From: a virus
DNA: 21,400 bases
Reading direction: 5' to 3' (one strand)
IMG/VR virus record: IMGVR_UViG_3300046491_000197
Span: 1-21,400 of that record
Shown here: positions 623 through 19,892 of the stretch, piece by piece
Layout: each line of letters begins with the position of its first letter
Position numbering within the stretch: position 1 is the first letter of the stretch
Translations under genes and position numbers: made by a program
Notes under the pieces: model-generated
The model's input: the letters and a program-made list of their open reading frames with translations, nothing else
What the model was told of the DNA's origin: nothing
Database searches by the model: none

Positions 623-1051
623 TCAAGTGCTTGTATTTGACACAAGCCTGACAGGACCGCCCGAGCCGTTGTCAAAAGTGATGGCAATCGCCACGGCTTC
701 CTCTGCGGAAGCTCCAGCACCCATCGCACCCTTGGCAATTGCGTGGCCCGAGCCGATCGCGAAGAAAGGCCCCTCGACCTCGCAGGCGGTGCCGAACTCC
801 ACGATGTACGCGTTGCCGTTGGGCTTGACCCAAATGACCGAGTTGTCTTCGCCGAGGTCGGGGATCGGCGACTTGCAGCCGCCCTTCGCCCATGCCTTCA
901 GGACTGGCAGGCCCGAAGAGTCGCCGCAGAGCCCGAGAAGATCGCCCTTGGTGGACCTGAAGACCTTTGTCACAAGACCCTGAAAAGAGCCGTCGTATGT
1001 GACCTTGCTGTCACCAGCCAAAACGCCGTCGCGGTACGCGATCGTTGTCAT
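623..1051 (-). CDS. HslV-like Ntn-hydrolase (proteasome beta-type peptidase)
   Basis: This 142-residue protein starts MTTIAYRDGVLAGDSKVT. That matches the N-terminus of HslV, the peptidase of the HslUV complex, in which Met removal exposes the catalytic Thr. Taking Thr2 as the nucleophile, the AGD motif supplies Asp14 and VTKV supplies Lys29, in the order of HslV Thr1/Asp17/Lys33 with a hairpin four residues shorter. Further on, 'AIGSGHAIAKGAMGAGASAEEAVAIA' parallels HslV's IGSGGPYAQAAARAL segment. The gene is about 30 residues shorter than bacterial HslV. It begins one base after the terminase stop, behind AAGGG, so it is probably co-transcribed with the terminase. No HslU unfoldase is in view. 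A role in head maturation or host protein turnover is inference. The 15-base dyad at 631-645 overlaps its last codons. Confidence 0.8.
   Translation of the reverse strand: MTTIAYRDGVLAGDSKVTYDGSFQGLVTKVFRSTKGDLLGLCGDSSGLPVLKAWAKGGCKSPIPDLGEDNSVIWVKPNGNAYIVEFGTACEVEGPFFAIGSGHAIAKGAMGAGASAEEAVAIAITFDNGSGGPVRLVSNTST
631..645. promoter_or_regulatory. Operator-like dyad TTGTATTTGACACAA
   Basis: This is a member of the recurrent TTGTGT-N3-ACACAA family, with right arm ACACAA and left arm TTGTAT. It lies inside the end of the HslV-like gene and 13 bases upstream of the -35 box of the portal promoter, a position suited to an activator or a repressor. Confidence 0.5.
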
Positions 1052-1052
1052 G

Positions 1053-2831
1053 TCAGATAATCCCTTTGATCTTGCGCTTGAGCGGCTGGCCCTTCACCCA
1101 TGACGACGCACGGCCGGCGATGAGGGCGGCTTCACCCGCGAATGTGAGACAGAGCGCGTCGGCCAAGTCGGGCGAGCGCATTCCGCGCTTCTTCAATTCG
1201 CCCTTGCTCTCGACCTTGAGCTTGCCGTTGGAGAGGAAGGTGTAAGTCGGGGCCACGAGCTCTTGGCGGAGATCGTCATTCTTCGGAATGTGGACGGCGC
1301 GGGTTGCCAGCCAGTCGCGAGTTGTCAGCCAGAGCTCGTCACGGAGCTTCGCAGCCTGGGGGTTCATCGCGGCCGTTTCTGACACGTTGACATCGCGGAC
1401 GTTGACACCGAGCTCGCGGAGGCGGTCGGCAACGCCACCACCCACGCCGATCGAGTCCACGCAAACCATGTCGGGCTTGTCGATGCGCCAGTCAGCCATG
1501 ACCTTGCCCGTGGTTTCCATCAGGTCAGCGCCATTCCAAGACTTGACCTCGGCGACCACGTTGCCACGGCGCTTGAGGAGCACGGTCCTATCATTGCCGA
1601 AGCGGGCCACGTCGAGCCCGTAGATCAGGGGCGCGTTGGGGTCGGGAACGATGTCGCGGCTCATGGCGCTGTCAACGAGCTCGGCGGAGATCAGCGTATC
1701 GTCTTCGCTCAGTGCGAACTCGCCGAGGACACGCACGCGGAAAGCGTTGCTGTTCTCGCCGTAGGTCGTCGCGATCTGCTTCACGAAGTCTTGGTTGACG
1801 AGCGGGTTGGCCGTGCAGGGAACGTGGAAGGTCTTCCACTCGTCTGACAGGCGGTGGTGTGACAGGAAGAACAGACCCGAGTTACGGGTTGGGTTTCCAA
1901 TCAGGATTGTCGAAGCCGCGTGACCTGACATCGAGCCTGCGGCGGACTCATAGACTTGCTCGGGGATGGCCGAAGCCTCGTCGCAAATCAGGAGCACGTT
2001 TTCGGAGTGGATACCGGCCAGTGCTTCCGGCCTGTCAGCCGAGCTCGTGCGCGCCGAGATAAACGAACCTTCCGGCGATGACTTGAGCACGATCCTGTCA
2101 GAAAAGACTTCGATCGTTTCGCGCAGCACGGCGGGAAGCTTGTTGATCCAAAACTTCAGTTCCGAGAAGAGCGCGTCGAATAGCTGGCCGGCGGTCGGTG
2201 CCGTACACACTGTTTTCTGCGGGTAGCGTGTCAGCATGTGCCAGATCATGGCCCACGAGCACACCGTAGACTTGCCGACACCGTGACCAGCGCGGACGCT
2301 AATACGCCGCTCGCCCGCTGCCACGGCACGCAGAAACTCTTCCTGCCACGGGAGCGGGTTAGCACCGAGGACATTCCTGACGAACTCGACCGGCTTATCC
2401 TTGTAGGCTTCAATGAAAGCAGCGTAGGCGGCTTTAAACTCTTCAGGGTTCGGGGCCGCGACCTGGCTGTCAGGTTTGGTCTCGGTACTGTCAGTTTTTT
2501 CAGTTTCAGATTTTTCGATTGCCGGAGGAGACGGCTCCCCGGAGGGGGTGGGGGTCTCGGGTGGCAGGCCCTCAAACTGACTTGCGATTTCCACAAGTGC
2601 ATTTTCTTTTTTTTGAGCGCGCTCTTGTTCGCGGCGCAAGCGTTCTTCCTCGATCGAGCGGATTTTCGTGAGCTCGTCTGTCAGCCGTGCGGTCTCTTGG
2701 AAGACAACCTTCTGCTCCTCGCCGAGCTTGGCAGCGGCCTTCTTCAATTCGGCACGGCGGGATTTTTCCTCGGGGGTGAGGGTCTTCCGCTTGATGGGGC
2801 GGCGGCGGGGGGGCTTCTGATTTTCTGCCAT
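1053..2831 (-). CDS. terL: Terminase large subunit (packaging ATPase and nuclease)
   Basis: The 592-residue protein carries the two-domain TerL layout. Walker A is AGHGVGKST (residues 181-189), Walker B is LLICDEAS (280-287, Asp284/Glu285) and the coupling motif is STILIGNPTRN (about 317-327). The C-terminal RNase H-like nuclease starts at IYGLDVARFGND (Asp407), with VCVDSIG (Asp459) and a late SPDLADAL motif as further metal ligands. It drives DNA into the prohead and cuts it into genome units. An unusual N-terminal extension of about 130 residues is rich in Lys, Glu and Arg up to about residue 80 (probable coiled coil), then in Pro, Ser and Thr. An internal start is possible, but the frame is open and CAGG lies upstream of this ATG. 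The gene lies between the putative small subunit and the HslV-like gene. Confidence 0.93.
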   Translation of the reverse strand: MAENQKPPRRRPIKRKTLTPEEKSRRAELKKAAAKLGEEQKVVFQETARLTDELTKIRSIEEERLRREQERAQKKENALVEIASQFEGLPPETPTPSGEPSPPAIEKSETEKTDSTETKPDSQVAAPNPEEFKAAYAAFIEAYKDKPVEFVRNVLGANPLPWQEEFLRAVAAGERRISVRAGHGVGKSTVCSWAMIWHMLTRYPQKTVCTAPTAGQLFDALFSELKFWINKLPAVLRETIEVFSDRIVLKSSPEGSFISARTSSADRPEALAGIHSENVLLICDEASAIPEQVYESAAGSMSGHAASTILIGNPTRNSGLFFLSHHRLSDEWKTFHVPCTANPLVNQDFVKQIATTYGENSNAFRVRVLGEFALSEDDTLISAELVDSAMSRDIVPDPNAPLIYGLDVARFGNDRTVLLKRRGNVVAEVKSWNGADLMETTGKVMADWRIDKPDMVCVDSIGVGGGVADRLRELGVNVRDVNVSETAAMNPQAAKLRDELWLTTRDWLATRAVHIPKNDDLRQELVAPTYTFLSNGKLKVESKGELKKRGMRSPDLADALCLTFAGEAALIAGRASSWVKGQPLKRKIKGII

Positions 2832-3415: not shown

Positions 3416-3467
3416 ATCAGGCGACGTTAGATCGCTGACAACTACTCCCGTTTGAAGGAACTAACCG

Positions 3468-4646
3468 ATGACACAACACGTAAGGCTTTCGGCAGAACAG
3501 CGCACGGCGCTTCGCCGCGCCATTACCTCACATGCATCGTGGGAAGCGTATCGCCGCGAGAACAACGGCATGACAAGCGCGGACCTGACATCAACCAAGT
3601 GCTTAGAGATTGCCGCGCGTTTCGGGATCAACGTGATTGACGTGATTTCGTCCGTTGAAACGCAAATCGACGCGCCAAAAGACATTGCTGACATTCAAGA
3701 GGAAAAGCCCGTGATCGCTGAAAAGACCGCGCCCGTTGCCGCTGGCGACGCTAAGACCGCTGCCGCGCTTGCTGCCCTGCAATCGCTTCTGTCGCCTTCT
3801 GTTGATATGGCGACGGTCGAAAAGATCGTTACCGAAAAGGTTGCGGCCGCTCTTGAAGGCACGGCGCTGTTGCGTATCGAGCTCAAGCGCGCTGACAACA
3901 CGGAATACAAGAGCGAAGGACAGCAGCACCCGCTCTTTGGTGACTTGCTTACGTCGCTGTCAACGAAGATGGCAAACGGCGCATATCCTAATGTATGGAT
4001 TGCAGGCCCTACAGGCAGCGGCAAGACACACGCCGCGAAGGAATGCGCTAAGGCGTTTGGCGTTGCCTTCTACTTCAACGGCGCACTGGCAATGCAGCAT
4101 GAGTTGCTAGGCTTTGTCGACGCGGGCGGCAGCTATCACACTACGCCATTCCGTGAGGCTTACGAAAACGGCGGGGTTTACCTCTTTGATGAAGTAGACG
4201 CTTCCGACAATGCCGCGTTGCTGGCGTTGAATGCAGCGCTGGCAAATGGCGAGTGCTCTTTCCCTGACAAGCCGTTGCCTGTCGCACGGCATGAGAATTT
4301 CCGCTGCATTGGCGCGGCTAACACGTTTGGACAGGGCGCAACGGCGGAGTTTATTGGGCGCGCCAAAATCGACGCTGCGTTCCTGTCGCGCTTCGCTATC
4401 AAGTTTCATTGGACATATGACATTGCGCTTGAACAAGCGATTTCGGGCAATGTCGAGTTTGCGAAGCGCGTTCAAGCCGCACGGGCAAGGGCGCAAGCTG
4501 CTGGCGTGAAAATCGTCATTGATCCGCGTCATTCTATGGCAGGCGCGGCTTTGATCGCTGCTGGAATGTCGAGCGATCGCGCGGCGGCGCTGACATACCT
4601 TGCAGGCTTGAAGGATGAGCAAACTCGTATCGTGGAGGGTCGCTAA
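3468..4646 (+). CDS. AAA+ ATPase of MoxR/CobS-like (AAA_5) type
   Basis: The 392-residue protein has an N-terminal region of about 150 residues without a recognised domain, then an AAA+ core: Walker A GPTGSGKT (180-187), Walker B VYLFDEVD (237-244), sensor 1 GAANTFG (about 282-288) and an arginine-finger motif FLSRF (305-309). 'ALAMQHELLGFVDAGG' followed by 'FREAYENGGVYLFDEVD' is the typical order in MoxR/dynein-type chaperones and in CobS. These ATPases remodel partner proteins or insert metals, usually with a VWA-domain partner, and the next gene has a VWA-like segment. AAGGA lies 9 bases before the ATG. Codon use differs from the replication genes (CAA exceeds CAG for Gln; GAGCTC is absent after base 3884). 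The cellular target is unknown. Confidence 0.8.
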   Translation: MTQHVRLSAEQRTALRRAITSHASWEAYRRENNGMTSADLTSTKCLEIAARFGINVIDVISSVETQIDAPKDIADIQEEKPVIAEKTAPVAAGDAKTAAALAALQSLLSPSVDMATVEKIVTEKVAAALEGTALLRIELKRADNTEYKSEGQQHPLFGDLLTSLSTKMANGAYPNVWIAGPTGSGKTHAAKECAKAFGVAFYFNGALAMQHELLGFVDAGGSYHTTPFREAYENGGVYLFDEVDASDNAALLALNAALANGECSFPDKPLPVARHENFRCIGAANTFGQGATAEFIGRAKIDAAFLSRFAIKFHWTYDIALEQAISGNVEFAKRVQAARARAQAAGVKIVIDPRHSMAGAALIAAGMSSDRAAALTYLAGLKDEQTRIVEGR

Positions 4647-4647
4647 C

Positions 4648-5523
4648 ATGCGCCGCACTGTCACCAAATCCATGAAAAAGGGCGCAACGCGCCCTGACAC
4701 GGGCCTTTGCTTTGATAGCTTTGGTGAGTTTGTCGAGCACTGCGCAACGCTTCCGGCTTCAAGCCGTCTAAATGGCGGCACAATGCAGGACAGTTGGACA
4801 GATAACCTTTCCTATGAAGGCGCTGTTGGTATGGCCCGCACTGGCGACCTGTCACGCGTTGCTGCTAGTGAAAAGCTTATGAGCAAGCTAGAAGACTTGC
4901 TCGAGTTTGACACGGCGCAAATGCAGACTGTTGACGCAATGACCGGCGGCATTCCAAACGTTGCCGCCTATCTTGCAGGCGCGCCTATGAACATGCGCCG
5001 CCGTCAACGTGTCATGTCACAAGCCGCGCCCTTGAACGTTATCGTTGACTTGACTTCAAGCGCTGGCGTTTCGTCAGAACAGCTTGCACGTCGCGGCGCA
5101 ACGTTGCTTGCTTTCGTTCGTATCATGTCAGCGCAACGCCCTGTCAATCTGTACGTTGCTAACGCGCACTCGCCTAACAGCGCTCAAGAGCATGAGTGCG
5201 TTGCGATCGCTGTTCGCCTTGACACTTCGCCGCTCGATTTGGCGCGCGCCTCTTATGCTATCTCGGGCGCGGCGTTCCCGCGTCAAATGATGTATTCCGC
5301 TGCTATCCATGAAAGCAAATGCCGCAACACTGACAGCTTGCCTTTCCCCTATAGCGACGTGAATTATTACCGCGCCAACTTGCACGCCTTTTGGTCGCGT
5401 TTCGTGTCAGTCGAGAGCGAAGAAACCGCCGTTATTGGCCCGCTCTATCTGACGGACGATTTCAAAGACCCTGAAGCGTGGCTTAGGAAAATGGTCGCGG
5501 AGTATGCGACACAAGAGGCTTGA
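4648..5523 (+). CDS. Unknown protein with VWA-like segment, partner of the AAA+ ATPase
   Basis: This 291-residue protein starts one base after the ATPase stop, with GGAGG 9 bases ahead of the ATG, so the two are almost certainly co-translated. The middle reads LNVIVDLTSSAGVSSEQLAR (about 129-148), then 'ATLLAFVRIMSAQRPVNLYVANA'. That is a buried strand, a DxTSS loop, a helix and a second strand, reminiscent of a von Willebrand A fold with a degenerate MIDAS (DxSxS) motif. The N-terminal part contains 'SFGEFVEHCATLP' and 'AGAPMNMRRRQRVMS'. MoxR-type ATPases are typically paired with VWA proteins, which supports reading this as the substrate-binding or adaptor subunit. I cannot name a characterised family with confidence. 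A strong terminator follows. Confidence 0.6.
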   Translation: MRRTVTKSMKKGATRPDTGLCFDSFGEFVEHCATLPASSRLNGGTMQDSWTDNLSYEGAVGMARTGDLSRVAASEKLMSKLEDLLEFDTAQMQTVDAMTGGIPNVAAYLAGAPMNMRRRQRVMSQAAPLNVIVDLTSSAGVSSEQLARRGATLLAFVRIMSAQRPVNLYVANAHSPNSAQEHECVAIAVRLDTSPLDLARASYAISGAAFPRQMMYSAAIHESKCRNTDSLPFPYSDVNYYRANLHAFWSRFVSVESEETAVIGPLYLTDDFKDPEAWLRKMVAEYATQEA

Positions 5524-5664: not shown

Positions 5665-6174
5665 CTATCCTTTCGACAGGCACCCGAAAAGCGCAATCAA
5701 CGCGGCTTCTGCCCTGTTATGGTCCTTCTCTTTCGGCCAATGCCTGTCAGTGCGGAAAAGCTTTGTGGCGCGCGCCTTAGCTGCCGCCTTGTCGGCAGGA
5801 ACAAGCAAGGCCCGTTTCCATGCGCTAGGGTGCGTCGCCTTGTAATCTTTCCACCCGTGCGACGTAAGCATGGTATCGAGCACGGCGGCAGTCCAGCCAA
5901 GCGAAAACGCAGTAGTTGACGTGATACCGGGCGCACCTGTCAGCCGCTCCACAAAAACCCTGTCAATTCCTAGCTCGGGTGTCAGCAAGTCCCCTAGCAA
6001 GTCATCAAGCTTTTCCGCGTCTAGGCGTTTGGTGTCACGCCTTGACATGCGAATAGTCTTCACGGGCAAGTCGCCTAGCTGGATCACTTCCGGCGGCACG
6101 CCCTTGCTGTCAGGCTGACACTCGACAATGGCCCACGCACCCGTGACACCGGGATCAATCCCCAAAACCCTCAT
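5665..6174 (-). CDS. RuvC-like Holliday junction resolvase
   Basis: The 169-residue protein begins MRVLGIDPGVTGAWAIVE, the RuvC/RNase H-fold first strand with catalytic Asp7. It continues with VFVERL (Glu76) and ends with 'KDHNRAEAALIALFG', where Asp151 and Glu156 or the adjacent His152 would complete the acidic metal site. The length suits RuvC (about 170). Phage RuvC-like enzymes resolve branched recombination and replication intermediates before packaging. The ATG follows GAGG by 7 bases. It is the only minus-strand gene between two plus-strand blocks, and its transcript converges on the terminator at 5530-5551. Its upstream region contains CAATCGGCCAA (about 6234-6244, minus strand), a partial match to the leader motif of the other minus-strand units. 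Confidence 0.85.
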   Translation of the reverse strand: MRVLGIDPGVTGAWAIVECQPDSKGVPPEVIQLGDLPVKTIRMSRRDTKRLDAEKLDDLLGDLLTPELGIDRVFVERLTGAPGITSTTAFSLGWTAAVLDTMLTSHGWKDYKATHPSAWKRALLVPADKAAAKARATKLFRTDRHWPKEKDHNRAEAALIALFGCLSKG

Positions 6175-10007: not shown

Positions 10008-10463
10008 ATGTTTGGACTGAAGACCCTGAAGAAAGCAATCGGCGCTGGCGCTAAGGAAGTTGCTGCCGAGTACGGCGAAAACAAAGACTTTCTGGAAGCC
10101 GTGCTTGCCGCATCGGCCCTCGTCGCCGCCGCTGACGGTGACATTGAAGAGTCCGAAAAGCGCAAGGTGATCTCGGTTGTCACCAACCACGCGCAGCTTG
10201 CCAAGCTCTACCCGCAGAACGTGATCGAGAGCACGGCCGAAACCATGTTCAAGCGTGCCAAGGACGCCAGCGGACGCCAGTCGCTTGCTCGCGAGCTCGA
10301 TGACGTGAAGACGCGCCCGAATGGCTCGCAGATGGCGGAAGACGTGTACCTGATCGCGCTGGATATCGCCAACGCGGACGGCGATCTTGAAGACGCCGAA
10401 CAGGTTGTCCTCGGCAAGATCGCCTCGCGCCTTAATATCGATGTCAGCAAGTTCGACTTCTAA
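10008..10463 (+). CDS. TerB-like (tellurite-resistance fold) protein
   Basis: The 151-residue all-helical protein has the internal repeat seen in TerB/TerB-like domains: ALVAAADGDIEESEKRKV (about 37-54) and 'ALDIANADGDLEDAEQVV' (about 117-134). Each carries an acidic DGD-xxxxE cluster that binds divalent metal in TerB. TerB proteins work with membrane-linked stress and defence complexes. Here the gene closes a cassette of small membrane proteins, which fits a membrane-associated role; that is inference. AAAAGGAA lies about 7 bases before the ATG. A TTCG hairpin follows the stop. Confidence 0.75.
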   Translation: MFGLKTLKKAIGAGAKEVAAEYGENKDFLEAVLAASALVAAADGDIEESEKRKVISVVTNHAQLAKLYPQNVIESTAETMFKRAKDASGRQSLARELDDVKTRPNGSQMAEDVYLIALDIANADGDLEDAEQVVLGKIASRLNIDVSKFDF

Positions 10464-19348: not shown

Positions 19349-19427
19349 TCACATGGCCGGGAACGGAACAGATTTCAACGAAAACGGTGGCATCGCCGCC
19401 AAACACGACAATCAAGGAGCAATCGAA

Positions 19428-19892
19428 ATGATCGAACGCGCAGGCCCGCCGACCGCCCGCAAGAAGGCAGACACCAAGGAAACCAACCCGAAGGACGCTG
19501 TTGGCGTGCGCAAGGTTCCCGGTCACGTCATCCCGCCGCGCGTCGTCGCCGAAAGCGGTCTGGCGTTTCTGGAGGGAGCCCGCAAATACGGCTCCTACAA
19601 CTGGCGCGAAGCCGGCGTCCGTGCGTCGGTCTACTACGACGCGGTTGTCACGCGGCACCTGGGGGCTTGGTGGGAAGGGCAGGACACCGACCCTGACAGC
19701 GGGCTCTCGCATGTCACCAAGGCTATCGCCGGCCTGATGATCCTCCGCGACTCGATGATGCATGGAAATTGGGTGGATGACCGCCCGATCGCGGCGGATG
19801 ACAGTTGGGTGCATACCATGAACGAAAAGGCGGCGGAAATTATCGAGCGCTATCCCAACCCGAAAGCGCCTTTCACGCAAAAGAAGGCTTGA
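19428..19892 (+). CDS. dATP/dGTP diphosphohydrolase-like protein (DUF5664)
   Basis: The protein has 154 residues from ATG 19428, which has an excellent AAGGAG 8 bases ahead; the frame is open to ATG 19353 (25 more residues, five bases after the polymerase stop) but that part looks non-conserved. TNPKDAVG opens the domain, then FLEGARKYGSYNWR, 'YYDAVVTRHLGAWWEGQDTDPDSGLSHVTKAIAGLMILRD' and GNWVDDRP. This is the DUF5664 pattern, named for dATP/dGTP diphosphohydrolases such as cyanophage MazZ. The acidic and His residues (Glu83, Asp86, Asp90, His95) would hold metals. It is a second, unrelated-looking nucleotide hydrolase beside the DUF550 gene at 14029. Substrate is unknown from sequence. Confidence 0.78.
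   Translation: MIERAGPPTARKKADTKETNPKDAVGVRKVPGHVIPPRVVAESGLAFLEGARKYGSYNWREAGVRASVYYDAVVTRHLGAWWEGQDTDPDSGLSHVTKAIAGLMILRDSMMHGNWVDDRPIAADDSWVHTMNEKAAEIIERYPNPKAPFTQKKA

Follow-up and report, generated by a model that had tools for sequence, protein, structure and literature searches.

A two-gene phage unit pairing a MoxR-class AAA+ ATPase with a predicted compact VWA-type DUF7192 protein

Introduction

Several hundred phage genomes, including staphylococcal and Listeria phages, contain an ATPase gene annotated as "porphyrin biosynthesis" or "AAA family ATPase", with a partner listed as "hypothetical protein". Such a pair lies at positions 3468–5523 of the window, i.e., the whole stretch of 21,400 nucleotides of viral DNA analyzed here (positions 1–21,400 of an IMG/VR virus record), and raises the question of what kind of machine, if any, the two products form and on what it might act. 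A first-pass annotation made from the letters alone had proposed a stand-alone unit of a MoxR-type ATPase and a VWA-like partner acting as chaperone or metal chelatase. The window resembles Sinorhizobium phage phiM5, a podovirus of LUZ24-like morphology.

Results

Gene layout

The following features surround and make up the unit:

623–1051, minus strand: HslV-family peptidase gene, beside the terminase gene
1053–2831, minus strand: terminase large subunit gene, flanking the pair
3454–3459, plus strand: GAAGGA, ribosome-site-like, 8 bases 5' of the ATPase start, read from the sequence
3468–4646, plus strand: MoxR-class AAA+ ATPase gene, 392 aa (AAA_5, phrog_249)
4634–4639, plus strand: GGAGGG, ribosome-site-like, 8 bases 5' of the DUF7192 start
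4648–5523, plus strand: DUF7192/phrog_1909 gene, 291 aa
5527–5552, plus strand: GC-rich hairpin terminator, AGGAAAGGCCC-GCAA-GGGCCUUUUCU, closing the two-gene unit
5665–6174, minus strand: RuvC-like resolvase gene, flanking the pair

The TAA of the ATPase gene ends at 4646 and the ATG of the DUF7192 gene stands at 4648, leaving the gap of a single base that had been described before, and both ribosome sites claimed for the unit are found as purine-rich stretches, the second one within the end of the ATPase gene. The postulated own terminator is likewise borne out, as the stretch enclosing the hairpin reaches –19.4 kcal/mol (z = –3.5), a value equalled by 0 of 200 shuffles; the hairpin is absent from the list of a terminator pattern scanner, apparently because much of its T run lies within the stem. 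The location between packaging and ruvC-like genes also agrees with the earlier description. A terminator-like hairpin on the minus strand is additionally present at 4679–4695, in the first part of the DUF7192 gene, where no minus-strand gene is known. Elsewhere in the window, 10008–10463 (plus strand) encodes a tellurite-resistance-type protein (phrog_632) with gp50 as counterpart in phiM5, and the product of 19353–19892 (plus strand) matches both phrog_2252 ("endolysin; inhibits RNA polymerase") and a dATP/dGTP pyrophosphohydrolase family, the "endolysin" label looking doubtful in this case.

The ATPase

The ATPase, encoded on the plus strand, is divided as follows:

Residues 1–63: helical N-terminal part
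Residues 64–94: linker
Residues ~135–392: AAA+ core

This protein is a MoxR-class AAA+ ATPase. Its AlphaFold2 model (pLDDT 87.9) is in fold nearest to MoxR structures, and with VIA-align the first ten rows are all NorQ and CbbQ at Z values of 18–21, the next class reaching 16. Walker A and B, sensor 1, arginine finger and sensor 2 are conserved over 65 sequences, with K186 (Walker A), N285 (sensor 1), R308 and R354 each present in all aligned relatives, D241 in 64 and E242 in 61 of them. The most conserved 20-residue windows cover the loop following sensor 1 (around residues 284–310). In the predicted model, the short strands 216–217 and 223–224 sit where the hairpin of a helix-2 insert is expected, and the motif GFxDAxGxYHxTPFR of this insert region is conserved. 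When the window ATPase was used as query against bacterial genomes, no relative was found.

Given the HslV-family peptidase encoded in the window as well as in phiM5, the ATPase might be imagined as the unfoldase of this peptidase. However, the peptidase family occurs in only 3 of 48 pair-bearing records and the ATPase belongs to the NorQ/CbbQ type; hence, the link is not supported and this role is extremely improbable.

The DUF7192 partner

The second protein, for which no clear known family had been seen at first, does belong to one: it matches PF23822 (DUF7192) with 72.7 bits against a Pfam gathering cut-off of 27, and phrog_1909 with an E-value of 6e-38. The DUF7192 match of Pfam extends to all 71 relatives, the family annotation is without function and the term DUF7192 was not found in a literature search. 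Its plus-strand product comprises:

Residues 1–80: small N-terminal part
Residues 92–122: hairpin
Residues ~125–291: VWA-type core

At the sequence level, none of the 71 partners matches the VWA or CobT families of Pfam included in the search at an E-value of 1, and comparison of the DUF7192 profile with PDB sequences gave nothing meaningful. Structure prediction is more telling. The AlphaFold2 model built with the 71 relatives is confident (pLDDT 91.6, pTM 0.85) and of VWA type, in line with the VWA-like partner suspected initially. VIA-align places the VWA domain of NorD on top (Z of 8.2 and 8.0), followed among the next rows by the MIDAS domain of Rea1/MDN1 (human and Chaetomium midasin, Z of 6.8–6.5), with deviations of about 4 Å across about 160 residues in the top rows. 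All rows listed are of VWA type, the others including integrin I domains, VWF A1, collagen VI and Ku, at Z values of only 5.6–8.2, which is middling. Foldseek is likewise led by NorD VWA and then Rea1-MIDAS, although the E-values, 6e-3 and 2e-2, are weak, and among predicted viral structures (E < 1e-3) the named matches are DUF7192 and then viral VWA/CobT-like proteins, except for two that are named only as uncharacterized. With these weak E-values and middling Z values, the VWA assignment draws on all listed rows being of this type and on the kind of ATPase with which the protein is paired. Few strands follow strand 3 in the model, and the partner would therefore be a short, irregular VWA. 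DUF7192 is accordingly predicted with confidence to be a compact VWA-type domain, and the separate analyses of both proteins point to the two components of a single machine of known type. The DUF7192 protein of Rhizobium phage P106B (L003:6123-7301) is extended at its N-terminus by a stretch whose weak match to DUF5710 stays under the Pfam cut-off.

MIDAS motif and hairpin

Two elements of the DUF7192 gene deserve closer description:

4921–5013, plus strand, codons 92–122: hairpin, candidate pore-inserting finger (from conservation, the model and comparison with NorD; PMC13036017)
5047–5061, plus strand, codons 134–138: DLTSS, first MIDAS motif (D-x-T-x-S), from the sequence

The DLTSS motif had been considered degenerate. 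In the window protein it is a near-normal first MIDAS motif; the description fits most of the family, the first motif being complete in only 19 of the 71 partners and its Asp retained in 42. A third MIDAS Asp was sought in the DUF7192 family and not identified, and the full set of metal ligands (DxSxS, T and D) is not conserved. As the MIDAS is mostly incomplete, target recognition in most members should not need the canonical MIDAS metal. In NorD, MIDAS mutants keep NorQ binding and lose target activation (PMC13036017, PMC9976466).

In the predicted model, hairpin 92–122 consists of two strands with a short helix in between, is located immediately before the first VWA strand and is bordered by the lower-confidence stretches 81–90 and 121–130. 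Five of the 10 near-invariant positions of DUF7192 (start Met excluded) fall into these 31 of 291 residues. Judging from sequence position and conservation, the hairpin may protrude as a finger.

Pairing and distribution

Seven highly divergent DUF7192 proteins gave an alignment whose variability precluded scanning the collection with it. Loci were therefore gathered via the ATPase alignment alone, which makes the test of pairing independent of the partner. In the resulting set of 80 viral loci, some being near-duplicates, DUF7192 is encoded downstream on the same strand in 76, at a spacing of –31 to 120 bases in 74 of these; the adjacency seen in the window is thus kept in other phages. Neither of the two outcomes named beforehand as refuting the first proposal, a confident non-VWA fold of the second protein or genes that are never adjacent in relatives, was observed. 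Among the unpaired loci, the contig ends inside the ATPase gene or at most 0.2 kb past it in three (L013, L023, and L072), and in the fourth (L063) DUF7192 is found elsewhere in the same genome. The partner is consequently a conserved neighbor, as in the AAA+-VWA chaperone pairs of the NorQD, CbbQO, and RavA-ViaA type. DUF7192 was detected by Pfam in 47 of 48 records and in the remaining one (L024) with a profile built in this analysis, while 0 of 14 cellular control genomes contained it. No co-conserved third gene adjoining the pair was found. The hosts of named pair-bearing phages belong to Sinorhizobium, Rhizobium, Acinetobacter, Gordonia, Mycobacterium, Staphylococcus, Listeria, Lactobacillus, and Tunturiibacter, and the pair spans phages of at least four bacterial phyla. 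Pairwise distances of ATPase and DUF7192 correlate with r = 0.83 over 64 loci and, for 12 loci with a shared terminase family, with r = 0.94 versus 0.77 for ATPase and terminase, a correlation that shows joint inheritance, not contact.

Two DUF7192 copies, as putative adaptors, are carried by mycobacteriophages; in Silverleaf, an additional DUF7192 gene (L094:7378-8256) lies about 3 kb off without an ATPase gene of its own. A tandem second copy is present at L014:5930-6787.

Cobaltochelatase reading

Of the two roles suggested at the outset, the chaperone is favored in the form of an AAA+-VWA pair, whereas the chelatase option is not supported. According to the latter, the pair would be a viral cobaltochelatase module, CobS plus CobT, working with host CobN in cobalt insertion and yielding more B12 during infection. 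Indeed, phrog_249 carries the label porphyrin biosynthesis, CobS-type proteins being annotated together with this ATPase family, and the ATPase profile matches PDB chains of midasin AAA (best), CobS (1.6e-13), and NorQ. Moreover, cobST clusters, likewise pairs of AAA+ and VWA genes, occur in tailed viruses of eight host orders, where CobST has been proposed to boost B12 (Liu et al., 2021, PMC8651126), and an increase of cobalamin-related host genes has been reported for a pecentumvirus, CKA15 (PMC12282133), pecentumvirus A511 having the pair. However, the window ATPase shows no match to CobS (TIGR01650) at an E-value of 0.01, with the best relative reaching only 2.5e-8, and the partners, lacking any Pfam match to CobT, are also devoid of the long N-terminal portion of CobT and, for the most part, of the MIDAS. 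CobN is encoded in 0 and ribonucleotide reductase in only 2 of 48 records. In addition, 236 staphylococcal phage records contain the ATPase and 236 contain DUF7192, while Staphylococcus species are reported to be B12 auxotrophs without B12-dependent enzymes (PMC8123684). Lack of CobN in the 48 records and carriage by staphylococcal phages, whose hosts are without B12, make the CobS/CobT reading quite improbable, although the pair might act with host CobN in some other hosts. At the cyanophage CobS locus examined, a DUF7192 neighbor is absent, and profile comparison of DUF7192 with the cyanophage "peptidase" near cobS gave no match; hence, sequence homology to cyanophage CobT is not claimed.

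Genome position and timing

The main rival is a chaperone for packaging or capsid assembly that remodels terminase, portal or scaffold, since in 26 of 61 loci terminase genes, of several families, are encoded on the opposite strand no more than 4 kb upstream of the pair. This adjacency can equally reflect an early/late boundary, though, and was set aside as packaging evidence, such a boundary effect being the probable cause. In phiM5 the pair is at the genome end opposite the terminase, phage P108 has no packaging gene annotated within 4 kb of it, and neither pair protein is marked as found in virions in the phiM5 annotation. Altogether, a packaging function is unlikely. A 65-aa ORF in another frame inside the phiM5 ATPase gene (gp65, L002:1349-1546) is annotated as detected in the particle proteome; the ATPase is not.

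The leftward arm of phiM5, which holds the replication genes, begins with the pair. We read the pair as the start of an early region beside a late one, and it is probably expressed early. In a paper on Kayvirus transcription, in which the timing of the pair was sought, the passages retrieved mention no gene of this kind.

This place at the start of the non-structural arm would also suit a defense or counter-defense element akin to McrBC or to conflict systems of the MoxR-VWA kind, and McrBC has a NorQD-like finger-in-pore assembly (PMC13036017). PADLOC, however, gave no convincing match, only weak ones for the ATPases (E ≥ 0.0027) and none for DUF7192, and does not support this reading; within phage lineages, moreover, the pair is conserved almost strictly, which would be unlike most accessory anti-defense genes. 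A defense role is decidedly unlikely, somewhat more so than one in packaging.

Discussion

Taken together, the predicted folds, the conservation of the active site, the strictness of the pairing and the place at the start of the phiM5 replication arm make it probable that the two genes encode a phage AAA+-VWA remodeling machine or chaperone, consisting of an ATPase ring and one docked DUF7192 VWA. The closest known system is NorQ/NorD (PDB 9qh4-9qhg), the top structural match for both proteins independently. Both ATPases share an invariant active site, and in DUF7192 a hairpin stretch precedes the VWA core at the place of the finger in NorD. In NorQD, this finger (residues 403–448 of P. denitrificans NorD) inserts into the NorQ pore and touches the helix-2 insert, and the NorD C-terminus contacts the post-sensor-1 loop (PMC13036017, PMC9976466). 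The regions corresponding to hairpin 92–122 and the post-sensor-1 window touch in NorQD (PMC13036017), and both candidate docking surfaces are conserved in the phage proteins. By analogy, we infer that DUF7192 docks on its ATPase as NorD does on NorQ. The ATPase would form a MoxR-type hexamer whose ring takes up one DUF7192, hairpin 92–122 entering the pore against the helix-2 insert and the C-terminal side meeting the post-sensor-1 loop. ATP hydrolysis would then rotate or pull the VWA subunit, which may pass the force to a bound target for refolding, assembly or disassembly. Most likely, the target functions early in infection and is a protein of the phage or the host, not a component of the virion.

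Differences from the known systems are nevertheless evident. NorD, of about 70 kDa, has a long N-terminal domain and a MIDAS that is both intact and essential, whereas DUF7192 has 291 aa and a variable MIDAS, and no nitric oxide reductase genes were seen near the phage pair. The CbbQ/CbbO Rubisco activase shares the ATPase fold (6l1q, 5c3c), but the phage pair has no Rubisco context and a much smaller partner. Midasin/Rea1 unites AAA ring and MIDAS/VWA in one chain and ranks second among the fold matches of the partner. Unlike the phage pair, it is one giant protein of eukaryotes that works on ribosome precursors.

Both AAA+-VWA pairs and cobST clusters of viruses have been reported before, and the finding is for this reason useful rather than astonishing; new is the recognition of DUF7192 as a compact VWA, often devoid of the MIDAS, that is paired with a widespread phage ATPase. 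Once the partner is recognized as a VWA, two orphan genes become a single machine that can be tested, and the B12 label on the ATPase, likely a false auxiliary metabolic gene, is corrected. Being small and naturally reduced, these AAA+-VWA pairs are suited to testing the role of the MIDAS. More tentatively, at rather less than an even chance, DUF7192 and the PHROG 249 ATPase might constitute a virus-specific AAA+-VWA class, spread over phages of the phyla mentioned above, in which MIDAS adhesion has mostly been lost in favor of another target recognition. If true, this class would be a general phage remodeling factor hidden under a B12 label.
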